Source of the DNA: Candidatus Xiphinematobacter sp. Idaho Grape
GTDB taxonomy: Bacteria > Verrucomicrobiota > Verrucomicrobiia > Chthoniobacterales > Xiphinematobacteraceae
Direction: 5' to 3'
Length of the DNA stretch: 64,000 nt
NCBI RefSeq assembly: GCF_001318295.1
Contig: NZ_CP012665.1
Coordinates: 372,001 to 436,000, forward strand
Shown here: piece by piece, positions 1 to 46,144 of the stretch
Numbering within the stretch: the stretch's first letter is position 1
How the letters are laid out: each line of letters starts with the position of its first letter
Translations under genes and position numbers: made by a program
The notes under the pieces: model-generated
The model's database searches: none
What the model was told of the DNA's origin: nothing
The model's input: only the letters and a program-made list of their open reading frames with translations

Positions 1-372
1 CTAGACGATAGCTATAACGCCAACCCAGATTCGGTGATGACCGCTCTTAACACTCTCTCTGAAATTCCATGTAAGGGACACCGTCTTGCCATCCTTGGAA
101 AAATGGATGAATTAGGAGCCTATGCAAAAAGGGGATATCAGAAGGTAGCCCAAGCGGCAGCAGTCTCCCTTGTAGATACCCTAGTAGCAGTTGGAGAAGA
201 AACTTTCCCACTTATCGAGGAGGCGACAAAAAGAGGGATGCGAAACGTCTATCATATTCCGGATACTCCTGCCGCAGCACAGCTTCTCAACAGCATAACA
301 AATCCTGGAGACTTGGTCCTGATCAAGGGCAGTAATTCAGCACGCATGAGTCGCGTCATTGAGCAATATTAA
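1..372 (+). CDS. murF: MurF C-terminal part (UDP-MurNAc-tripeptide--D-Ala-D-Ala ligase), cut by window start
   Basis: The frame is open from base 1, so only the last 123 codons are visible. It begins LDDSYNANPDS, the strongly conserved MurF motif at the start of the C-terminal domain, followed by LAILGKMDELG, and ends in GSNSARMSRVIEQY, which corresponds to the MurF terminal Gly-Ser-Arg-Met stretch. MurF adds D-Ala-D-Ala to UDP-MurNAc-tripeptide in the cytoplasm. The stop codon shares one base with the ATG of the following mraY, as expected inside a tightly packed dcw operon. The missing N-terminal half, with the P-loop, lies outside the window. Confidence 0.93.
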   Translation, partial: LDDSYNANPDSVMTALNTLSEIPCKGHRLAILGKMDELGAYAKRGYQKVAQAAAVSLVDTLVAVGEETFPLIEEATKRGMRNVYHIPDTPAAAQLLNSITNPGDLVLIKGSNSARMSRVIEQY

Positions 373-3585: not shown

Positions 3586-4734
3586 ATGAACTTCCTCTAC
3601 AAACGCGGTGCATACATCCTGCTTACTGCGGTTGCAGTGTTATTGGTGCTAGGGATCATTGTATTATTTAGCACCAGTGCCTTTGCCAAGGAGAGCCACG
3701 GAGATATGTACTATTTTGTTAAGCGGCAACTCCTATGGTTGGTGATTGGGATAGTACTTTGTGTAATAGCCTCTCTAATAGATTACCACTGGTGGGAAAA
3801 AACATGGTGGATCTGGCTAGTTGGAGGAACGCTCCTATTGGTACTATGTTTCGTCCCGCCGGTTGGGATAAAGATCAATGGCTCGTGGCGGTGGGTCAGC
3901 CTGCGGATTGTGACCTTCCAGCCTAGCGAAATCGGTAAATTAGCGGTAGCGATTTTTTTGGCCTGGTGGTTCTCCAAATTCAGGTGTCGTTCTGACGATT
4001 TACTTGTGGGTTTCCTTTTTCCAGTAGTCATTGCAGGCATTCCCACGGCACTGATTGCCAACGAGGTAGATTTGGGAACTACGGTACTTATTCTCGGTAC
4101 AGCGTTTCTCATCATGTTTGCGGCTGGGATTAGCCTTTACCGGTTGGTTCCACTCACTATCATCGGATTAGGAGTAGTTCTCTATGTCGCTGTTCATATC
4201 CACGAACGTGCAGGTCGTCTAACAGCGTTTTTGCATCCTGAACAATATCGCTTAGAGGAGGGGCTACAGCAGTGGCAGGCTCTAATTGCCTTTGGTTCTG
4301 GGGGAATTACAGGGTTAGGATTAGGAGAGGGTCGGCAAAAGTATTCTTATCTCCCATATGCTCACACAGATTTTATCTTCGCTATGATTGGGGAAGAGAT
4401 TGGCCTCATTGCAACACTTACAATTGTCCTTTGCTACCTCCTTATCTTCCTGTGCGGGGCGCTGATTTCTTTTAACGCTAGGGATTACTTTGGTATCCTT
4501 CTTGGGTTTGGACTAACTGTACTCATTACCCTTCAAGCAATGATCAACATAGGTGTTTCTATTTCCCTGTTGCCTAATAAGGGAATGCCCCTGCCGTTTA
4601 TTAGTTACGGCGGCTCAAATATGGCTATTTGTCTCTCTATGGTGGGCATTTTGCTGAATATCTACCGTATGGGCTACCCTCTTTCTTCCATGTCCCCGTG
4701 CCTTCTAGTTACTTCGCATGCCTGTAAAAACTAA
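3586..4734 (+). CDS. ftsW: FtsW, SEDS-family peptidoglycan glycosyltransferase of the divisome
   Basis: FtsW polymerises septal glycan strands with its partner class B PBP, which is not in this window. The 382-residue protein has about ten membrane spans and the SEDS motifs FQPSEIGKLA, NEVDLGTTVLI, the LGLGEGRQKYSYLPYAHTDF loop and GMPLPFISYGGSN, in order. The dcw position supports FtsW rather than RodA. About 30 bases separate it from the decayed murD-ftsW gene, and the next gene, murG, follows after 11 bases. Confidence 0.94.
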   Translation: MNFLYKRGAYILLTAVAVLLVLGIIVLFSTSAFAKESHGDMYYFVKRQLLWLVIGIVLCVIASLIDYHWWEKTWWIWLVGGTLLLVLCFVPPVGIKINGSWRWVSLRIVTFQPSEIGKLAVAIFLAWWFSKFRCRSDDLLVGFLFPVVIAGIPTALIANEVDLGTTVLILGTAFLIMFAAGISLYRLVPLTIIGLGVVLYVAVHIHERAGRLTAFLHPEQYRLEEGLQQWQALIAFGSGGITGLGLGEGRQKYSYLPYAHTDFIFAMIGEEIGLIATLTIVLCYLLIFLCGALISFNARDYFGILLGFGLTVLITLQAMINIGVSISLLPNKGMPLPFISYGGSNMAICLSMVGILLNIYRMGYPLSSMSPCLLVTSHACKN

Positions 4735-4745
4735 ATAGGTCCTTG

Positions 4746-5831
4746 ATGAAAATTGCGATTGCATGTGGAGGATCAGGTGGCCACCTATTTCCAGGCCTCG
4801 CTGTTGCCAAAGCTTTAAGTGAGCGTCATCATGAGATCCTTTTGCTAATTTCGGAGAAGGAAATCGATTCCGTTGCATTGCAGGCACATTCGGAATTTTC
4901 CTTTGAAAAACTACCTTCGATTAGTCTTCCTTCTACTCTTTCTCCAGCACTCATCCATTTTTTGCGGCTTACCTGGAAAGGTCTTGCGAAGTGCCGTAGG
5001 ATACTTAGCCGTTACCAGCCCAGAGTGGTTTTGAGCATGGGTGGGGGCACCTCTGCAACTTTGGTTATCGCTGCCAAAGCAGCTGGGATTCCGTCTTGTG
5101 TCCATGAGTCTAACTCCGTTCCTGGACGAGCCAATCGATTAGGTTCAAAACTTACTTCCCATGTACTATTAGGATTTTCAGAGTGTAGAGCCCACTTTCC
5201 AAGAGTGGAGTGCACGGTGACAGGTATCCCCATACGCACAGCTCTCACTAGACCTATCCCCAGAGAACAGGCTCTCACTAACCTCCAGCTGGACCCTTTA
5301 CGGAAAACACTCTTAGTAGTCGGTGGTAGCCAGGGAGCTTCTAGTATCAATCAACTTCTCTTTCATGCGGCTCCACTTTTGCGTAACATGCGCCTCCAGA
5401 TTATCCACTTTACTGGAAAGCGAGACGACTACCCAATTGCCTCCAACTACTTGCAGGAAAACATTCCAGCCTACGTGGCTGGCTTCCACCACAATATGGA
5501 ACAGGCCTTCTCCTGCGCCGATCTCGTTATTTCTAGGGCAGGTGCTTCCACCCTAAGCGAAATTTCCTACTTCGGCCTTGCCAGCATACTTATCCCTTAT
5601 CCCTTTGCGAGGGACAACCACCAAGAGGGTAATGCTGCCGTCTTCGTCCGTGCAACCGCTGCAGAAATGCTTCTAGAGTCGGATGCCACCCCAGAAACCC
5701 TTACTAGGCTCATCGTAAACCTACTGAACGATGAATACCGTAGACAGTGTATGGCCCAACACGCAAGAAAAGTATTTCCTCACAATTCTACTCAACGGAT
5801 TGTCGATACAATCGAAAAAATTGGGAAATGA
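4746..5831 (+). CDS. murG: MurG, lipid II-forming GlcNAc transferase
   Basis: MurG adds GlcNAc to lipid I at the inner face of the membrane. The 361-residue GT28 protein starts MKIAIACGGSGGHLFPGLAVA, which contains the glycine-rich acceptor loop, and has VVGGSQGASSIN and SRAGASTLSE in the UDP-GlcNAc-binding C-domain. An in-frame TTG lies just before the chosen ATG. The stop overlaps the start of murC as ATGA, indicating translational coupling. Confidence 0.96.
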   Translation: MKIAIACGGSGGHLFPGLAVAKALSERHHEILLLISEKEIDSVALQAHSEFSFEKLPSISLPSTLSPALIHFLRLTWKGLAKCRRILSRYQPRVVLSMGGGTSATLVIAAKAAGIPSCVHESNSVPGRANRLGSKLTSHVLLGFSECRAHFPRVECTVTGIPIRTALTRPIPREQALTNLQLDPLRKTLLVVGGSQGASSINQLLFHAAPLLRNMRLQIIHFTGKRDDYPIASNYLQENIPAYVAGFHHNMEQAFSCADLVISRAGASTLSEISYFGLASILIPYPFARDNHQEGNAAVFVRATAAEMLLESDATPETLTRLIVNLLNDEYRRQCMAQHARKVFPHNSTQRIVDTIEKIGK

Positions 5832-8128
5832 TTACCACAAGCTACTTAGCCTCTCTTCTCCTCGTGGATGTACCTCTTCGCATCCATCTTATCGGAGTCG
5901 CTGGGTCCGGCATGAGTGCGTTAGCAGTCCTGCTCCTGGCATTGGGCCACCGTGTCAGTGGATCTGATAAGGTGGACACACTCGAAATCCGACAGCTAAC
6001 TCAGTTGGGATTGGTATTTGAAACTCCTCACCGCGCAGAACATGTTCGTGGAGTAGACCTTGTAGCACAATCCTCTGCAGTCAAACCTGGCAACGTAGCA
6101 TTAGATGAAGCTATTCGTTTGGGCATTCCTATAGCAAGAAGGGCAGATATACTGGCAGCAATCATGACGTACAAGAGAGGCATTCTAGTTTGTGGTATGC
6201 ATGGGAAAACTACCACTACGGCCATGGCTGCACATGTCCTTCGCCTAGGTGGACTGAAACCTTGCCATTATGTGGGGGCAGACATCCCCATTCTTGGGGC
6301 AAACGCACGATGGGACTCTGAGAGTGAATATTTTGTTGTAGAGGGAGATGAAAGCGACGGCAGTCTTACTACCTACTTTCCAGAACACGCTCTTGTACTT
6401 AATGTCGAGCCAGAGCATCTTGACTTTTATCAAGATCAGGACGCTATTGACGACGTCTTTTCCCGTTTGATAGCCCAAACCTCCGGTTGGACATTCTATT
6501 GTGCAGATGACGCCGGCGCAAGGCGCGTCTGTACGTCTCACCCAAGAACTGTTTGTTATGGTACCAACGCCTCTTGTGACTACTGGATGGAGCTTTTTTC
6601 GAGCAGCAGAAATGGCGGGATCCTTACCCAACTTGCTATTTATCACCGTAAAAGCTTTCTTGGCAACATACAGCTAAATGTTCCTGGACGACATAACGCT
6701 CTCAACGCGCTTGCCGTAACTGCACTCGCCATGGAGTTAGGAGTGCCTTTCGATCTTATTGCAGCAGCCCTCCGATCCTTTCGCGGCGCAAAACGCCGCT
6801 TCGAAATTAAGTTTCAAGATAGCCTACAAATAATAGTAGATGACTATGGACATCATCCAACGGAGATCCAGGCTACACTTTCCACTGCCCGGTCATTCGG
6901 ATTTCAGAGGATAATCGTTATGTTTCAGCCACACCGTTACTCTCGTACACAGGCGTTATATAGACAGTTTGGCACAGCGTTTTATGGAGCTGACTATGTA
7001 CTGGTGACAGACATCTATCCTGCCGGGGAAGAGCCAATTCCTGGCATCTCCAGCCAAACCATTGTGGAGGCTCTACAGAAAGCAGGACATCCTCGTGTTC
7101 AATCCCATTCCTCCATAGCTACTATCCATCAGCAAGTAGGGAGAAATCTTCTGGAAAGAGATCTCGTTATAAGCCTTGGCGCTGGAGATATTTATGAAGC
7201 TAGTAATCGTTTAGCCAAAGATTTGACAATGCGTAAACGTTTGCTTACGGCCATGGGACCAGGTTCCATTCGTCTTTACGAACCTATGAGTAAACACACT
7301 ACTCTTCGTGTAGGAGGTCCCGCCCAATTCTGGGTAGAACCCCAGACAGAAGAGGGATTCATAGACCTCGTGCGGCTTTGCTCCACTGAGAATATCCCGC
7401 TTACGGTGATTGGGAGAGGTTCTAATCTCCTGGTGAGGGATGGGGGTATTCCCGGCGTGGTAGTCCATCTTGGACATGGGCAATTCCTCCAGAGTCAACC
7501 AAATGGCCACAGCATCGTAGCAGGTGCCGGAGTGCGTTTTAAGCAGATAAGCTGTATGGCCTATCGCTTTGGCATTGGGGGGTTTGAGTGGATGGAAGGT
7601 ATTCCTGGGAGTTTAGGAGGAGGACTTCGAATGAATGCAGGTGCCATGGAAGTACAGCTTTTTGACCAAGTCGTTTGCGTTAGATGCTGTGATCAAAAGG
7701 GGAACATCTTGATCAAGACCCCTCCAGAACTTAACGTCCACTACCGCAACACCCCCGACTTCGCTTGTCATTACGTTCTTTCTGCAACCCTACAAGGTTA
7801 TGCTTCTTCTCCAAAAGAGATTGATCACCGGCTGAGAGAGTCAAAAAGAAAGAGGCACCAATCTCAGCCCATTGCAGCTAGTGCTGGTTGTATCTTTAAG
7901 AATCCTAGAGAAGTACCTGCAGGGAAACTTATTGAGGAATTAGGACTTAAAAACTTTTCTATCGGCAAAGCACGCATTTCCGAAATCCATGGTAACTTTA
8001 TTGTCAATGATGGCTCTGCTTCTGCAGGAGAAATTCTGACCCTTATTAAGGAAATCCGTACTATCGCTAAGCGGGAAAGGGGAATTGAACTCCAGACAGA
8101 AGTCCAAATCGTTGGAGAAAACCTCTAG
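5828..8128 (+). CDS. murC-murB: MurC-MurB fusion: UDP-MurNAc--L-Ala ligase joined to UDP-GlcNAc-enolpyruvate reductase
   Basis: This is one 766-codon frame with two complete enzymes. Residues 1 to about 465 are MurC: the Rossmann motif GVAGSGMSALA, the P-loop GMHGKTTTTAM, the EGDESDGS motif and a C-domain with DDYGHHPTEI. The rest is MurB: the FAD-binding motifs LRVGGPAQFW and GRGSNLLVRDGG, then GIPGSLGGGLRMNAGA and AGCIFKNP. The proton-donor Ser of MurB (Gly-Ser-Phe-Phe in E. coli) is Cys here. Both enzymes act on UDP-activated precursors, reduction first and L-Ala addition second, so the fusion joins consecutive steps. The start ATG overlaps the murG stop; the longer upstream frame lies inside murG. 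Confidence 0.95.
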   Translation: MITTSYLASLLLVDVPLRIHLIGVAGSGMSALAVLLLALGHRVSGSDKVDTLEIRQLTQLGLVFETPHRAEHVRGVDLVAQSSAVKPGNVALDEAIRLGIPIARRADILAAIMTYKRGILVCGMHGKTTTTAMAAHVLRLGGLKPCHYVGADIPILGANARWDSESEYFVVEGDESDGSLTTYFPEHALVLNVEPEHLDFYQDQDAIDDVFSRLIAQTSGWTFYCADDAGARRVCTSHPRTVCYGTNASCDYWMELFSSSRNGGILTQLAIYHRKSFLGNIQLNVPGRHNALNALAVTALAMELGVPFDLIAAALRSFRGAKRRFEIKFQDSLQIIVDDYGHHPTEIQATLSTARSFGFQRIIVMFQPHRYSRTQALYRQFGTAFYGADYVLVTDIYPAGEEPIPGISSQTIVEALQKAGHPRVQSHSSIATIHQQVGRNLLERDLVISLGAGDIYEASNRLAKDLTMRKRLLTAMGPGSIRLYEPMSKHTTLRVGGPAQFWVEPQTEEGFIDLVRLCSTENIPLTVIGRGSNLLVRDGGIPGVVVHLGHGQFLQSQPNGHSIVAGAGVRFKQISCMAYRFGIGGFEWMEGIPGSLGGGLRMNAGAMEVQLFDQVVCVRCCDQKGNILIKTPPELNVHYRNTPDFACHYVLSATLQGYASSPKEIDHRLRESKRKRHQSQPIAASAGCIFKNPREVPAGKLIEELGLKNFSIGKARISEIHGNFIVNDGSASAGEILTLIKEIRTIAKRERGIELQTEVQIVGENL

Positions 8129-8134
8129 GTCCGC

Positions 8135-9073
8135 ATGAGAAATTACCAACGCCTTTTACAAGTAGACCGCTCTTCCCTGAAAGGGATGCATTTTGTTGTT
8201 CTCAAGGGCGGTCCTGGAAAAGAGCGGGCAATCTCTCTGCAATCGGGTGCCTCGGTAGCAGATGCTTTGCGCTCGCGACAGTACTATGTTACCGAGATCG
8301 ATGTCACCAAAGACCTAGACTTACCTAAGGGCACAGATCTTGTTTTTAATACGATTCATGGAACATTTGGGGAGGACGGTTGCTTACAGGATCTCCTTGA
8401 GGAAAGAGGAGTTCCGTTTACTGGAGATGGAGCTGCAGGCTGCCGGCTGGCATTCGACAAAATCCTTGCTAAAAGACGGTTTGTTAGAGCTGGAATCCCT
8501 ACGTCTCCCTTTGAGGTACTGTCTTCTGGAGAACAGCCTTCCTTTGCACCACCCTTTGTACTTAAGCCCCCCTGCCAAGGGTCTTCGATCGGCGTACATG
8601 TAGTGCATAACCGGCAACAAATACCCTTAGCTATGGAAAATGTCCTGAAATACGGCGACAAGGTCCTGCTAGAGTCCTTTTTTTTAGGTAGGGAGCTTAC
8701 TGTGAGCGTTGTTGCGAACACGGTGCTTCCAATAGTTGAGATTGTATCCACAAATGGAGTATACAGCTACGAAAACAAATATGTGTCTGGGAGATCTGAG
8801 TATTTCGCACCAGCACGCCTCAGCAGTGATCATACCGCAGCAACTATGGATACAGCTCTAGCAGCCCATCAAGCGCTTGGATTACAACTTTGCTCCCGTG
8901 TAGACATTCTTCTTAGCGAGGAAGGAAGATTGAATGTCTTGGAAGTCAACACTATCCCTGGCATGACACCCTTTAGCCTTATGCCACGGGCAGCCGCAGC
9001 AATTGGGATCGATTTATCCTTACTCTGTGAGATCATAGCTGTAATTTCCCTGCAAAAGTGGAAAAAAGCGTGA
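8135..9073 (+). CDS. ddl: D-alanine--D-alanine ligase
   Basis: Ddl makes the D-Ala-D-Ala dipeptide used by MurF. The 312-residue ATP-grasp protein shows IHGTFGEDGCLQ near the N-terminus, the PFVLKPPCQGSS ATP-binding loop, and LEVNTIPGMTP with the metal-binding residues at the C-terminus. It begins 6 bases after murCB and its 3' end overlaps the proposed GTG start of ftsQ by 16 bases. Confidence 0.95.
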   Translation: MRNYQRLLQVDRSSLKGMHFVVLKGGPGKERAISLQSGASVADALRSRQYYVTEIDVTKDLDLPKGTDLVFNTIHGTFGEDGCLQDLLEERGVPFTGDGAAGCRLAFDKILAKRRFVRAGIPTSPFEVLSSGEQPSFAPPFVLKPPCQGSSIGVHVVHNRQQIPLAMENVLKYGDKVLLESFFLGRELTVSVVANTVLPIVEIVSTNGVYSYENKYVSGRSEYFAPARLSSDHTAATMDTALAAHQALGLQLCSRVDILLSEEGRLNVLEVNTIPGMTPFSLMPRAAAAIGIDLSLLCEIIAVISLQKWKKA

Positions 9074-9984
9074 AGCCTCTGCTTTTTTCGTCTCCCTCCC
9101 GTGCGCGCCAGAGATCTACTCTATTGAAGGTACGGGTGTGCCGGGAGACCAGTCGCAGGCGTCGTGTAGCTTGGATTTTTAACACTATTTGGAAATTCCT
9201 CTTTTTCACGTCTTTGCTAATTGGGGGCTGGGCCGGGACTAGCAGACTGCTTACTAAATTTTTCTACACAAACCCCTGCTATAGTATTTGCCACGTCCAT
9301 GTTGATTCCGAGAATGTTTTCTCAGATGAGGAAATATTTGCTTCCACAGGGTTCCATTTTGGAGATAACATCTTCTCCGTCGACCTGGAAAGTGCGCGTA
9401 AGAAACTGCTTGCCATTGGGCAGATACGAAATGTAATTCTCAGACGTGTATTGCCGGACACGCTGCGGATTTCGATTCGGGTCAGGGAGCCTGTGGCATG
9501 GTTGGTTTCTGAGGTGGAAGATCAAAAGAGAATGCCTCGCCACGTCCCTGTCGGCTCACTTCTCTTAGAAGCAGCAGGCACTTTTTATGAGCCGACTCGT
9601 GTCCTTCCCAGATATCTTTCTCTGCCCATTATCCAGGGGGTAAACCAGGAACTTTTAGCTTCTGGGGACCCGTTAGTAGCGGAGGATTTGCTCCACGCCC
9701 TTGATTTGCTACGCCTGGCCGCGGCGCGGCGCAATCCTCCTATTTCGCTTCGCCTTTTAGATCTATCAGCGGGGTATTGCATCCGAGCACTGGGAGAATC
9801 TGATGAAGCCATTACTTTTTCAACTCAAGACTTCGAAGCACAATTAGATCGACTGCAAGAGCTCATGAAGGTCTGTGAACACTCTGGAAGGCGAATTGCA
9901 AGTGTTAACCTTTTTGTCCACCGGAATACCCCCGTACGATTTTTCGGAAAATCAGGCAAGTATCCTTTTTTTCCAACAGAATAG
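9058..9984 (+). CDS. ftsQ: FtsQ/DivIB-like divisome membrane protein
   Basis: The 308-residue product has a basic cytoplasmic N-terminus, one membrane span at about residues 40-60 (FNTIWKFLFFTSLLIGG), a POTRA-like region with IFASTGFHFGDNIFSVDLE and a following beta domain. FtsQ links early and late divisome proteins. The start is GTG at 9058 overlapping ddl; a second GTG at 9070 is also possible. Sequence conservation is low, as usual for FtsQ, and the call rests on topology plus its place between ddl and ftsA. Confidence 0.85.
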   Translation: MEKSVKPLLFSSPSRARQRSTLLKVRVCRETSRRRRVAWIFNTIWKFLFFTSLLIGGWAGTSRLLTKFFYTNPCYSICHVHVDSENVFSDEEIFASTGFHFGDNIFSVDLESARKKLLAIGQIRNVILRRVLPDTLRISIRVREPVAWLVSEVEDQKRMPRHVPVGSLLLEAAGTFYEPTRVLPRYLSLPIIQGVNQELLASGDPLVAEDLLHALDLLRLAAARRNPPISLRLLDLSAGYCIRALGESDEAITFSTQDFEAQLDRLQELMKVCEHSGRRIASVNLFVHRNTPVRFFGKSGKYPFFPTE

Positions 9985-10030: not shown

Positions 10031-11257
10031 ATGGGAAAAAACCAAGTTCTTGTTGGAATAGAAATCGGTACTAGTAAAGTATGCACCGTTGTTGCCGAGG
10101 GATGCGGGAACGATGGAGTGCGACTCCTCAGCGTGGGGAAAATACCATCCAAGGGTGTTCGCAAAGGAGAGATCGTGGATTTTCCCACAGCAGTCAGGTG
10201 TGTTCATGAGGCACTAGCAGATGCAGAAGAAAAAAGTGATGTAGAAATTGATAGTGTTTGGGCGGCAGTTACTGGGAGCCATATTGTTAGCTTTAACAGC
10301 CGTGGAGCTATTAGGATTCCAGAAAATAGGGCAGAAATCGATTTAGAGGACCTTTCCGACGTGGAGACGAATGCTAAGGAAATATGTTTACCTCCACAAC
10401 ATGATTTCCTTCACGCAATTATCCAGCACTACTATGTGGATGGGAAGGATGGCATTCTCGATCCCGTTGGCATGGTTGGAACGTGCCTAGAAGCTGATTT
10501 TCATATTGTTCACGGCGTTACTACTCGTTTGCAAAACACTGTCCGGTGTATCCGTGAAGCTGCCGTTGAGGTAGAGAACATTGTCCTGAGTGCCTTAGCA
10601 TCTGCCCAAACTGTTTTGGCTCCTCAGCAAAAAGAATTGGGAGCTCTTGTCGTAGATATAGGTGGTGGTGTGACGGACTATATCCTTTATGTTAATGGTG
10701 TTGTCCGCCACAGTGGGGTATTAGCTATTGGCGGCGACCATGTTACTAGTGATATTTCTATGGGACTCCATATTCCCATTCAGAAGGCAGAAGAGCTTAA
10801 GGTAGAGGTTGGTTCCACTTCCTTGGAAGCTGCCCTCCCTGGGGATACTGTACTCTTAAAAAGCAGCTCTGGGTTTCCTGGATGTGAGGTAGAACGGCAC
10901 GTACTAAATACCATTATCCATGTCCGTGTTAGAGAGCTTTTTGAAATTCTTAAAAAGAGAGTACAGAATGAATGCTCCCTCCATATGCTTGGCGCAGGTA
11001 TCATTCTCAGTGGGGGATGCAGCCTCCTGCAAGGGATAAAGAGTCTTGCTGAAGAAGTTTTTGAAATACCTGTATACCTTACCCATGCTAATACAGCAGA
11101 TCACGTCTCCGCTTTTGAAAATCCACGACTCTCGACAGTAATCGGCCTACTCAAGTATGTTCACACTATCCAAACTGGTCTTCCACAACCAACTTTGCTT
11201 CAAAGGCTTGGCCGCAGAGTAGGGATGCTTTTTGGGAAACGACGAACACTGGCCTAG
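10031..11257 (+). CDS. ftsA: FtsA, actin-like membrane tether for FtsZ
   Basis: FtsA anchors FtsZ filaments at the membrane. I start it at ATG 10031 (MGKNQVLVGIEIGTSKVC), giving 408 residues; an in-frame GTG upstream overlaps ftsQ. Visible motifs are the phosphate-1 loop GIEIGTSKV, the phosphate-2 loop VVDIGGGVTDYI and the adenosine motif LSGGCSLLQGI. The C-terminus (LLQRLGRRVGMLFGKRR) can form the basic amphipathic helix that binds membrane. FtsZ follows after 102 bases. Confidence 0.93.
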   Translation: MGKNQVLVGIEIGTSKVCTVVAEGCGNDGVRLLSVGKIPSKGVRKGEIVDFPTAVRCVHEALADAEEKSDVEIDSVWAAVTGSHIVSFNSRGAIRIPENRAEIDLEDLSDVETNAKEICLPPQHDFLHAIIQHYYVDGKDGILDPVGMVGTCLEADFHIVHGVTTRLQNTVRCIREAAVEVENIVLSALASAQTVLAPQQKELGALVVDIGGGVTDYILYVNGVVRHSGVLAIGGDHVTSDISMGLHIPIQKAEELKVEVGSTSLEAALPGDTVLLKSSSGFPGCEVERHVLNTIIHVRVRELFEILKKRVQNECSLHMLGAGIILSGGCSLLQGIKSLAEEVFEIPVYLTHANTADHVSAFENPRLSTVIGLLKYVHTIQTGLPQPTLLQRLGRRVGMLFGKRRTLA

Positions 11258-11359: not shown

Positions 11360-12700
11360 ATGTTGGAGATCCAAAAAGCTTCGGAAGCGTATAGCGGAGA
11401 GGGAATAAAAGTAAAGATCGTGGGGATAGGAAACGCTGGTATCGATCTTGTAGATCGATTTACTACTGGGCGTGCTGCCCAATGGGAGACTGTTGCGATC
11501 AACACTGATTTTCAATCATTGGCTTATTCAATGGCAGATTCCAAGATCCCTATTGGCACAAAGACAACCCACGGTTTGGGAACTGGTAGTAATCCAGAAT
11601 TGGGGAGGGAAGCAGCCATAGAATCACAAGCCGCCTTTCAAGCCGTTGGAGAGAGCACAACCATGATCATCGTATGCGCTGGGTTGGGAGGTGGAACTGG
11701 TTCGGGTGTAGTACCCGTTTTGTTGGAGACAGTACGCGCCCATGGCGCACTTACTGTGGCACTTCTCACCCTACCATTCGATTTTGAAGGCACAAGACGC
11801 ACGCGACAAGCAATGGATGCCCTTGAAAAAGTCCGCTCCTCTACTGATGCAATCCTGGTTTTTGAGAACAACCGTATGTCAGAGGTCACACAGTCGAGAG
11901 CAAATATCGGAGAAACATTCTCCCAATCCAGGGGCTTTCTTGTACAAGCCTGTACCACAATTGCAAGGCTCATTTTTGGCACAGGTCCTATGCAAACTAC
12001 CCTAGGAGATCTTGCAGTTGTTCTTCGCCCGAACAATGATAGTATCTCTCTCTTTGGTTTTGGAGCAGCCGAGGGAAGTAACCGGGCTCATGACGCCCTT
12101 TCCTACGCTTTGGAAAATCCCTTTATGGATCATGGGCGTCTCCTTACTGATGTAGAACGTCTTTTGGTCTACATTGATGGTCCTTCTAATCTTTTACTTT
12201 CTGAAGTACAAACTATCGTTCAAAAAGTTTCGAAATCCTGTAACGATTCTGCCCGTATTTTACTAGGAATACAGGCCGCAGGTCTATCCTCCGTTCCTGT
12301 TACGGTATCCTTGTTAGGAACGTGCCGTGGTACTCATTCTATACTTCTACCCAAAGGTAGACCCTTTCCTTCTGACACCGCTGTGCCACCAGTTACTCCC
12401 TTTATGTCTCAGGAGGTAGCCACTTTAAGTTGTACTACTCTGGCCACTACTTCGAAAGATACCTACCCAGAAGGAAAATTTTCCTCTACACAAACGCAGG
12501 CATTTTCCTCTTCCAAAGCTGGCACATTAGAATTCCGGCCAAACAAGGAAGCATGTAAACATTCAATGAAGTCAGGACGGAAACAGTTTCCGTTTAACTT
12601 AACAACTCATGGAAGGTTTGAGAAAACTGAGCCTACCCTAGTAGAGGGTGAAGACATTGACGTCCCCACTTTCTTGCGCATGAAAATTAGACTCAAGTAG
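11360..12700 (+). CDS. ftsZ: FtsZ, divergent tubulin-like division GTPase
   Basis: The 446-residue protein has the FtsZ tubulin signature in the form [14 protein letters not shown] (residues 108-121), the N-terminal VGIGNAG loop, and a C-terminal conserved peptide [11 protein letters not shown] that normally binds FtsA. Between the GTPase core and the tail is a Ser/Thr-rich linker of about 100 residues. The T7 synergy loop is unusual: where E. coli FtsZ has Asn-Val-Asp-Phe-Ala-Asp, this protein has QTTLGD (residues 212-217), so the Asn and the first catalytic Asp are lost. It follows ftsA and is the last division gene of the cluster. The family call is firm; its GTPase activity is uncertain. 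Confidence 0.9.
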
Positions 12701-15302: not shown

Positions 15303-15472
15303 CAACTACTTCCTTCTATGCTATTCGTTTAGCTTACTATAGAGTTGGCACTGTGGTTTGCCGGACAGCGTGCGGTTCCCTCCTCGGAGAAATTTCACAT
15401 GAATCGGCTTTTCCAGGAGTCTACAAATTGGCTTTGTGCTCCCAAGTTGGGCCTACCGGTTGCCTTTCTATT

Positions 15473-15557
15473 GCTCGGGTGGCGGAATTGGCAGACGCGC
15501 CAGACTTAGGATCTGGTGGAGTAACAATCCGTGTGGGTTCGAGTCCCTCCCCGAGCA
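15473..15557 (+). tRNA. tRNA-Leu (anticodon TAG)
   Basis: An 85-nt class II tRNA. The acceptor arms GCTCGGG and CCCGAGC pair perfectly, the anticodon loop is CTTAGGA with TAG, there is a long variable arm, and the T-loop is TTCGAGT. Discriminator A, with no encoded CCA. Confidence 0.95.
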
Positions 15558-15580
15558 TCAGAGTCTTACTCTTCAACTAT

Positions 15581-15663
15581 TGGGCAGGGCTGGATTCGAA
15601 CCAGCGAAGGCGTAAGCCAGCGGATTTACAGTCCGCCCCGTTTAACCACTTCGGTACCTACCC
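15581..15663 (-). tRNA. tRNA-Tyr (anticodon GTA)
   Basis: On the minus strand, the acceptor arms GGGTAGG and CCTGCCC pair with one G-T. The anticodon loop is CTGTAAA with GTA, followed by a long variable arm with a GCTTACGCCTTCGC core and a T-loop TTCGAAT. It lies 23 bases from tRNA-Leu and faces it (convergent). Confidence 0.94.
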
Positions 15664-15912
15664 AAATAGAAAAGCGCCCGAGGTGCTATTGACACAACCC
15701 AGCCCGCTTCTAACCTACCAGATTCTCTCCCATAATTTTCTATTTGCTGCGTCCGAGAACGCACCCCACCCTCCCGGACCATGTATGATGCTACAACAAG
15801 TAGCTAAGGAATGTCTCGTCCCTTTTTGTGAAGGGAGAACCAAAAGAAGCAGATCACTCTAGTGACGGCTATAAGATAAGAAAGAGTCATCCGAGAAAGT
15901 CAATACAGCCTT

Positions 15913-43732: not shown

Positions 43733-46144
43733 ATGAATCGTCAGCGTCGTGCTCGGCCATTTCATGAAATCGGCGGCTTCGCTCTGCTCGGTGCTGCAGC
43801 TTTGCTCTTTTTAGCCTTAATCTCTTATGATCCTAATGACGTTCCGTCCTATATCCCTCTCGTTTCGACAACTACTCCTTATAACCCTCTTACAAGAAAT
43901 TACGTTGGCTTAGTAGGAGCGGTGTGTGCCGGTTACGGTTATTTTCTTTTTGGATCGGGTGCCTATTTAATTTCTATACTCCTGGTCACATTCGGAATCA
44001 GCAAAGCCATCCAACCGCTTTTTTCCCTTAAAGAACGTGCAGGATGGGGCTTGGTCCTTTTACTGAGTTTCTGTGCTCTGGCTGAACGCCAGCCGTGGTT
44101 TCTGTACAACTGGAAGGAAGAGCTTGGAATCGAGGGTCCTGGAGGATGGTCCGGGCGCGCTCTTTCTCGGGCCTTTGTCCCACTGGGCACGGTCGGGGCA
44201 ACAGTAGTACTCTTGGTCCTTTATGCTACTAGCTTAATTTTTGCCACTGGGTTCCGCCCAGTCGACCTTCTCCGAAGAGCAGTCTCGGCCCTTACCTCCT
44301 TTTTTCAGAAAGTACGAGAAAAAAGCTTCCGGCAACTGGACGAATTATCTCGGATGGAAGTGCGTAAAAGGGCGCTTGAAAAGCAGGCCAGTAAGCTAGA
44401 AAAGAGGCTAAAAAGGCATATCACAAAGGCAACCTCTGTTTTGATCCCCTCAGGCCCCTCTCTTCGAGATCCGAGGGCTACCGACACCTCCGTTTTAATA
44501 CCCAAGCCAATTCCTTCTAGAGGAAAAAAATCTGATGGTAGCCCAGCCTGTTTAGAGTCAGAAGATTACGTATTGCCCCCTATAGATCTCCTTGATACTC
44601 CAAGCATGCGGGGAATCCCCACTGATCCTACAGAACTACTGGACACGCAAAGAATTATTCTTCAGGTGCTTAGGCAGTTCTCTGTTGAAGCAAGACCAGG
44701 TGAAATCACAAAAGGGCCTGTCATTACCCGATACGAAATTTATCCCGCCGAAGGTATCCGTGTGGACCGCATTCTCAGTCTAGAGAGGGACATTGCTCGT
44801 GCCACGTGCGCTGAAGACATCAACATCCTAGCCCCAATCCCAGGTAAAGATACCGTAGGTATTGAAATCGCTAATGCTGAAAAGATGAATGTCACCCTAC
44901 GTGAGCTTTTGGAAACACAAACCTGGCTTCAGTCCAAGGCAAATCTTCCCATTGCTCTCGGCAGGGATATCTACGGGAATACCCTGTTAGCTGATCTGGC
45001 AAAGATGCCACACCTTCTCTTAGCAGGTACCACAGGTAGTGGAAAAAGTGTCTGTATTAATGCGATGATAGCCAGCCTTATCTTTCGCCACCCCCCTGAA
45101 AATCTGCGCTTCATTATGGTTGATCCCAAAGTAGTCGAGCTGCAAAGTTTTAACTCACTTCCCCACCTAATCACACCTGTAATTACAAACCCCAAGTATG
45201 CTCTCACCGTACTTCGCTGGCTGGTTGGAGAGATGGAAAATCGATATCGAATTTTTGCTGCATGTGGGGTGCGCAACATCCAAGGGTTCAACTCACGCTC
45301 TAAGACTAGGTTACCAGAAAGATCAAGCCCCAAATTAGGTCGAACTTCAGATGGTGTGAGGACCATGAACACGTCTGGAAAAGCTCGTACTTTTCAGAAA
45401 AATGGGATGGAATTGCCGGAGCATTTAGGGTACATCGTGCTCATCATCGATGAGCTAGCTGATCTGATGCAAGCAGCACCCTCTGATATGGAGAGTATTA
45501 TTGTCCGCATCGCTCAAATGGCTCGTGCTGCTGGTATCCACTTAATTGTCGCCACCCAAACTCCACGAGTAGGGGTAGTAACTGGACTTATCAAGGCGAA
45601 TATTCCGTCCCGAATTGCATTTCAAGTGGCTTCGAAAATTGATAGCCGCGTGATTTTGGATGAAAACGGCGCAGAAAGGCTGCTAGGGCAAGGGGATATG
45701 CTCTATTTGCCCACAGGCTCCTCTAAATTGCTTCGTGCTCAAGGAGCGTTAGTTACCGATGAGGAGGCTCAGCGTTTGGTAGATTTTGTTTCTTCTCAAT
45801 TATCCCCCCACTACGATCGTTCCATTCAAGAAAAGTTAGAAGAGGAATCTGCCGGCCATGAGGAAGGCCTCATAGAAGAAGATAAAGCACTAGTCCAAAA
45901 GAGCATCTCAATCATCCGGCAAGAACGAAAGGTATCCATTTCCATGTTGCAGAGGCGGTTGCGGCTTGGCTATACGCGAGCTGCAAGAATAGTAGATTTC
46001 CTAGAAAGAAGTGGTATTCTCGGACCGAAGCATGGAGGAAGAGATAGGGAAATTCTTGTGGACCCTGGTGCTTTGCAAAAGAAACAGCAAGAGGTCAGTG
46101 TAAAACCATCCGACACAAGCTTTTTGGGAGAAAAAGGCTCCTAG
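43733..46144 (+). CDS. ftsK: FtsK, DNA translocase of the divisome
   Basis: FtsK pumps chromosome termini apart at the septum. The start at ATG 43733 is preceded by AAAGGA at a good distance; a GTG at 43697 adds twelve residues. About four membrane spans occupy residues 10-170, followed by a charged linker, the RecA-like motor with Walker A AGTTGSGKSVCINAM and Walker B IVLIIDELADLM, and a C-terminal gamma winged helix (SMLQRRLRLGYTRAARIVD) that reads KOPS sites. At 803 residues it is shorter than E. coli FtsK because the linker is short. Confidence 0.95.
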   Translation: MNRQRRARPFHEIGGFALLGAAALLFLALISYDPNDVPSYIPLVSTTTPYNPLTRNYVGLVGAVCAGYGYFLFGSGAYLISILLVTFGISKAIQPLFSLKERAGWGLVLLLSFCALAERQPWFLYNWKEELGIEGPGGWSGRALSRAFVPLGTVGATVVLLVLYATSLIFATGFRPVDLLRRAVSALTSFFQKVREKSFRQLDELSRMEVRKRALEKQASKLEKRLKRHITKATSVLIPSGPSLRDPRATDTSVLIPKPIPSRGKKSDGSPACLESEDYVLPPIDLLDTPSMRGIPTDPTELLDTQRIILQVLRQFSVEARPGEITKGPVITRYEIYPAEGIRVDRILSLERDIARATCAEDINILAPIPGKDTVGIEIANAEKMNVTLRELLETQTWLQSKANLPIALGRDIYGNTLLADLAKMPHLLLAGTTGSGKSVCINAMIASLIFRHPPENLRFIMVDPKVVELQSFNSLPHLITPVITNPKYALTVLRWLVGEMENRYRIFAACGVRNIQGFNSRSKTRLPERSSPKLGRTSDGVRTMNTSGKARTFQKNGMELPEHLGYIVLIIDELADLMQAAPSDMESIIVRIAQMARAAGIHLIVATQTPRVGVVTGLIKANIPSRIAFQVASKIDSRVILDENGAERLLGQGDMLYLPTGSSKLLRAQGALVTDEEAQRLVDFVSSQLSPHYDRSIQEKLEEESAGHEEGLIEEDKALVQKSISIIRQERKVSISMLQRRLRLGYTRAARIVDFLERSGILGPKHGGRDREILVDPGALQKKQQEVSVKPSDTSFLGEKGS

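Follow-up and report, generated by a model that had tools for sequence, protein, structure and literature searches.

FtsZ with a one-carboxylate T7 loop in the nematode symbiont Candidatus Xiphinematobacter and changes of this loop across Verrucomicrobiota

The window, i.e. the whole stretch of 64,000 nucleotides that was analysed, corresponds to positions 372001-436000 of the genome of Candidatus Xiphinematobacter sp. Idaho Grape, which was present as a single contig of 915,884 bp. For this verrucomicrobial symbiont of dagger nematodes a genome of 0.916 Mb is published (PMC4607532). ftsZ was located in the dcw cluster, following ftsA (Table 1). The preliminary description of the window had stated that FtsA, FtsQ, FtsW and FtsK are kept. 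This could be shown for FtsA and FtsW, both above their NCBIfam cut-offs, and a match was detected for FtsK, while FtsQ was matched weakly. For MinC (PF03775) and ZapA (PF05164) no match was found in the whole genome at E <= 0.001. Furthermore, a single reading frame comprises both murC and murB as a fusion (window 5747-8128); such a fusion is published for Verrucomicrobium spinosum (PMC12283558). Downstream of clpB, a tRNA-Leu (+) and a tRNA-Tyr (-) lie close together (window 15472-15664), and the reading frame 15353-15862 extending over them is probably no gene.

Table 1 Division genes of the window and features of its FtsZ (positions of the window)
Feature	Position	Strand	Basis
ftsW	3586..4734	+	TIGR02614, 347.9 bits (cut-off 337.5)
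ftsQ-like	9058..9984	+	weak profile match
ftsA, directly upstream of ftsZ	10031..11257	+	TIGR01174, 337.9 bits (cut-off 175.85)
ftsZ, 446 aa	11360..12700	+	PF00091 and TIGR00065 profile matches
Asp50 and Gln52 (E. coli D45, Q47; S. aureus D46, Q48), kept	11507..11515	+	alignment; roles PMC8936486
T4 GTP-binding loop GLGGGTGSG, residues 108-116, kept	11681..11707	+	
Arg147 (E. coli R142, S. aureus R143), finger-like arginine, kept	11798..11800	+	alignment; role PMC8936486
Helix H7, residues 183-206	11906..11977	+	AlphaFold2 model
T7 loop GTGPMQTT, residues 207-214; Gln212 for Asn207, Thr214 for Asp209	11978..12001	+	alignments, AlphaFold2 model
Asp217 (E. coli D212), sole T7/H8 carboxylate left of the three-residue motif	12008..12010	+	
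Extended C-terminal docking block, residues about 417-442, including FtsA-binding peptide	12608..12685	+	
FtsK motor domain match	about 44897..45568	+	PF01580, 231.3 bits

The assignment of the gene product to FtsZ was examined with family profiles and a structure model. It reached 119.3 bits with the tubulin/FtsZ GTPase domain PF00091 (cut-off 33) and 37.4 bits with the FtsZ C-terminal domain PF12327 (cut-off 27). The tubulin signature GGGTG[ST]G is contained in its GTP-binding loop. In the complete genome, ftsZ was the only PF00091 match and the only gene of the tubulin/FtsZ family found. Superposition of an AlphaFold2 model of the core (alignment of 68 sequences, mean pLDDT 91.6) with E. 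coli FtsZ covered 306 residues at an rmsd of 2.7 and a Z score of 39.8, i.e. the full FtsZ core fold is present. Residues 16..324 of the model cover 11..316 of the E. coli chain, with an offset of 5 at the start. In agreement with the preliminary description, the GTP-binding loop and the C-terminal FtsA-binding peptide are both present. This peptide belongs to a block of about 25 residues, GRFEKxEPTIVEGEDLDVPTFLRxK, which precedes and includes it and is conserved in the order. The block is looser in other parts of the phylum, and none of 22 outgroup proteins matched a loose pattern of it. Many FtsZ of Verrucomicrobiales carry an arginine where E. coli has Gln47; in E. coli, FtsZ with the exchange Q47K requires a suppressor (PMC5405962).

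The score for the curated equivalog TIGR00065 was 221.9 bits and thus below the cut-off of 295.2. This results from the divergence of the phylum, since a match over the cut-off was obtained in only 14 of 145 Verrucomicrobiota genomes. The FtsZ of this phylum, including that of V. spinosum, are counted among the most divergent of bacteria (PMC1845146, PMC9871819, PMC12283558). Accelerated evolution of ftsZ was described for Methylacidiphilum and Prosthecobacter, with ftsA unaffected in Methylacidiphilum (PMC2474590). The window, with FtsA well above and FtsZ below the family cut-off, agrees with this Methylacidiphilum pattern.

The residues of T7 are considered nearly universal and indispensable for hydrolysis and treadmilling of FtsZ. 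The codons 11993-12010 of the window encode Q212-T-T-L-G-D217. In an ungapped alignment with E. coli FtsZ (from NC_000913), Gln212, Thr214 and Asp217 take the places of Asn207, Asp209 and Asp212, exactly as claimed before, coordinates included. Instead of N-x-D-x-x-D the protein has Q-x-T-x-x-D, and the last Asp alone is kept. In the model, helix H8 follows at residues 215-221. A shifted alignment hiding an intact catalytic loop elsewhere was considered. No point in favour of such an artefact was found, and its probability is next to nil. HMMER placed residues 195-222 without gap on GLINVDFADVKAVM of M. jannaschii FtsZ. The offset to E. coli FtsZ at the T7 loop is 5, equal to that of the superposition, and N-x-[DE]-x-x-[DE] does not occur anywhere in the 446 residues. 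With the ungapped HMMER alignment, the motif scan and the superposition, misalignment was rejected. Chance or a sequencing error as source of the change was rejected too, because the stretch of 20 residues recurs unchanged in a second Xiphinematobacter genome.

The preliminary description had called the loop degraded, which did not hold: the loop type is common to all sampled relatives of the same order and clade, including genomes of free-living size, and stands under purifying selection. All 30 FtsZ of the order are without Asn207 and Asp209 and retain an acid at 212. In the second Xiphinematobacter genome the T7 loop is the same; among 25 codons of this region, 8 changes were synonymous and none was non-synonymous, and dN/dS of the FtsZ core between both genomes was 0.14. 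Thus, FtsZ including its T7 loop is under purifying selection and the loop is kept as it is. Q-x-T-x-x-D was also detected in members of the genus with genomes of 1.9 and 2.5 Mb, from which we conclude that the change probably preceded genome reduction. A drift of the loop in an endosymbiont that tolerates weak division control would fit the small genome (PMC4607532) and the score below the family cut-off. It is very improbable nevertheless, as the loop type is the same in these larger genomes and in the whole clade, and no non-synonymous change occurred in T7 although synonymous sites diverged. Decay in the endosymbiont was therefore rejected, based on the loops of the relatives and on dN/dS. 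The state of the loop is an old peculiarity that is actively maintained in the phylum, and not the decay of a single symbiont.

FtsZ of the phylum were collected by family search, protein search and a scan of genome contigs. Searching the contigs with the window protein alone yielded nothing; with the alignment of the order, 80 loci were found. Among 190 distinct verrucomicrobial FtsZ with resolved T7 loop, a sample unbalanced by lineage and with unsure placement of the loop in the most divergent families (e.g. Methylacidiphilum-like), the full N-x-D-x-x-D was present in only 12. In contrast, it was present in all 21 FtsZ of other phyla, which came from the same contig scan and were found by patterns outside T7. 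Of the three residues, Asp212 alone was retained in 75 of the 190 proteins and Glu212 alone in 19, Asn207 and Asp209 without an acid at 212 in 33, and Asp209 alone in 25. Exactly one catalytic acid was counted for 159 proteins and neither for 5.

The type of loop differs between the lineages. Gly, Ser, Ala or Thr was detected at 209 in Chthoniobacterales, Spartobacteria and Verrucomicrobiales, and His in a Limisphaerales-like group. Opitutae have NLDFAT, keeping Asn207 and Asp209 and losing Asp212; at 212, individual loci of this type carry Thr, Ala, Ser or Gly instead. In a genome taken as that of Akkermansia muciniphila the loop is Arg-x-Gly-x-x-Asp. A further search, started from a Verrucomicrobiales FtsZ, gave its 30 closest relatives, all of which showed Gly209 together with Asp or Glu at 212. 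Many relatives have an extra Asp at 211 (GFDDL, GLDDL), and several have Arg, Lys or His at 207. A published primer for ftsZ of V. spinosum had no match among 384 genomes of the class; judged from its relatives, the FtsZ of this species probably is without Asp209 as well. Two distant FtsZ matches were obtained in viral contigs, one of them with the canonical loop. In three Methylacidiphilum-like FtsZ from genomes of the class of about 2.2-2.5 Mb, neither a T7 loop nor a C-terminal domain could be recognised, and GLGGAMGS or GLGGGMGS stands instead of the GTP loop, with C-terminal NLDLPAFLRKG or NLDLPTFIRKG still kept. A few genomes of the phylum contain a second FtsZ-family match, which is partial or divergent.

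A tree of 123 rows was calculated under LG+C20 with the T7 columns left out. The window FtsZ fell into a 40-row clade with an SH-aLRT of 99. Throughout this clade 209 is non-acidic, save for two very long-branched rows with Asp aligned. With a non-acidic residue at 209 and Asp at 212, the window protein belongs to this one-carboxylate group. Loss of Asp212 maps to an Opitutae-like clade (support 98). On a larger tree the fewest changes were 14 for 209, 13 for 212 and 14 for 207. The loss of Asp209 in the clade follows from alignment and tree, its direction being suggested by the outgroups. Asp209 would have been lost once, close to the root of the clade comprising Chthoniobacterales, Verrucomicrobiales and Akkermansia. 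Asn207 changed repeatedly, and the Xiphinematobacter lineage has Thr at 209.

Position 212 was Asp or Glu in 101 of 106 proteins with non-acidic 209 and in 26 of 84 with acidic 209. A Pagel-type test of correlated evolution between both positions gave likelihood ratios of 13.5-15.4 (nominal p 0.004-0.009). As control, 30 random column pairs were tested on the same tree, one of which reached 16.0. Independent pairs, with contrasts too few, gave a median p of 0.25. Because of these two results, a rule to keep one acid, with the two acids substituting for each other, is regarded as suggestive only.

The function of this loop can be discussed with structures of S. aureus FtsZ filaments (PMC8936486). 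In E. coli numbering, the equivalent of Asp209 swings and places the attacking water, and that of Asp212 stays as part of the surroundings of this water. The equivalent of Asn207 holds K+, that of Gln47 locks it, and that of Arg142 acts like an arginine finger. The S. aureus variants N208L, D210N and D213N were impaired in assembly (PMC8936486). E. coli D209A formed aggregates instead of filaments in yeast (PMC3684127), and for E. coli cells to divide with D212G, a suppressor mutation at another site of the genome is required (PMC5405962). By analogy with the S. aureus mutants (PMC8936486), it is plausible that hydrolysis is slowed or lost by the T7 change of the window protein.

We consider the window FtsZ to be an ordinary working division protein with an ancestral one-carboxylate T7 loop (probability about 0.6). 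The GTP-binding side of the filament interface is complete with Asp50, Gln52, the GTP loop and Arg147, and Asp217 is kept in addition. Most likely, the protein forms GTP-dependent filaments on the membrane via FtsA, and Asp217 with bridging waters would carry out hydrolysis at reduced rate. Turnover would then be slower than that of E. coli FtsZ, the enzyme not being dead. In the related V. spinosum, ftsZ is an essential gene (PMC12283558), hence a working FtsZ is the safer assumption. Against this explanation stands that a canonical FtsZ with the loop of the window would be expected to fail, since S. aureus D210N and N208L and E. coli D209A are defective.

Weighed as an alternative was a static FtsZ, which would bind GTP, form filaments and bring in FtsA and the wall machinery with almost no hydrolysis and no treadmilling driven by it. 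The absence of both the water-positioning Asp and the K+-binding Asn (PMC8936486), the division of E. coli D212G with a suppressor (PMC5405962) and the lack of detectable MinC or ZapA in the genome are in line with it. A mere scaffold, however, need not keep Arg147, Asp50 and Gln52, and the position of Asp217 is Asp or Glu in 95% of the proteins without Asp209. We regard the static protein as less likely than the working enzyme. Rather improbable is a full compensation, in which another residue or an altered geometry of the loop restores the normal GTPase rate; a residue replacing the Asp had been named as a possibility in the preliminary description. The extra Asp at 211 of many relatives could provide this, and Arg, Lys or His at 207 could replace the bound cation. 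The window FtsZ, however, has Gly at 211 and Gln at 207, and no further acid in its T7 loop.

In the available parts of four publications on verrucomicrobial FtsZ (PMC1845146, PMC9871819, PMC12283558, PMC2474590) a loss of catalytic T7 residues is not described. No description of lost T7 residues in Verrucomicrobiota FtsZ was found in the open-access literature. An earlier partial notice is possible, either in PMC1845146, where a figure highlights eight unusual positions of the V. spinosum protein, or e.g. by Pilhofer and colleagues in 2007 and 2008. The divergence of these proteins was thus known, and the loss in the catalytic loop would be new within the open-access literature searched. It is conceivable, though doubtful, that the active site of FtsZ was rewired across the phylum, one carboxylate being enough and the classes having kept different ones, as an intermediate toward the division without FtsZ of Planctomycetota and Chlamydiota. 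With most of the phylum missing at least one T7 residue and ftsZ being essential in its studied member, natural variants are at hand for asking which carboxylate FtsZ needs and how general hydrolysis-driven treadmilling is. The finding also raises the question how FtsZ works in Verrucomicrobiota, and concerns the loss of FtsZ in related phyla as well as the human gut bacterium A. muciniphila.

In comparison with the canonical FtsZ of E. coli, S. aureus, B. subtilis and M. jannaschii, the window protein is similar in core fold, GTP loop, T2-H2 Asp and Gln, finger-like Arg, C-terminal FtsA-binding peptide and the location behind ftsA in the dcw cluster. It differs in T7, where Gln and Thr replace Asn and the first Asp, and in the score under the TIGR00065 cut-off. 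Within the phylum, Verrucomicrobiales have Gly at 209, whereas Xiphinematobacter has Thr. The FtsZ of Candidatus Thiosymbion oneisti, also from a nematode symbiont, was measured to have low GTPase activity (PMC8953583). There, in contrast to the window FtsZ, T7 loop and catalytic residues are conserved and the low rate comes from elsewhere. Nitrosopumilus maritimus FtsZ is missing the NVDFAD T7 loop, too (PMC3684127). That protein is also without GTP-binding motif and fails to polymerise, and division of the cell is ascribed to Cdv proteins. Unlike in N. maritimus, the FtsZ of the window has kept its GTP loop and its division partners, and a second FtsZ was not found.
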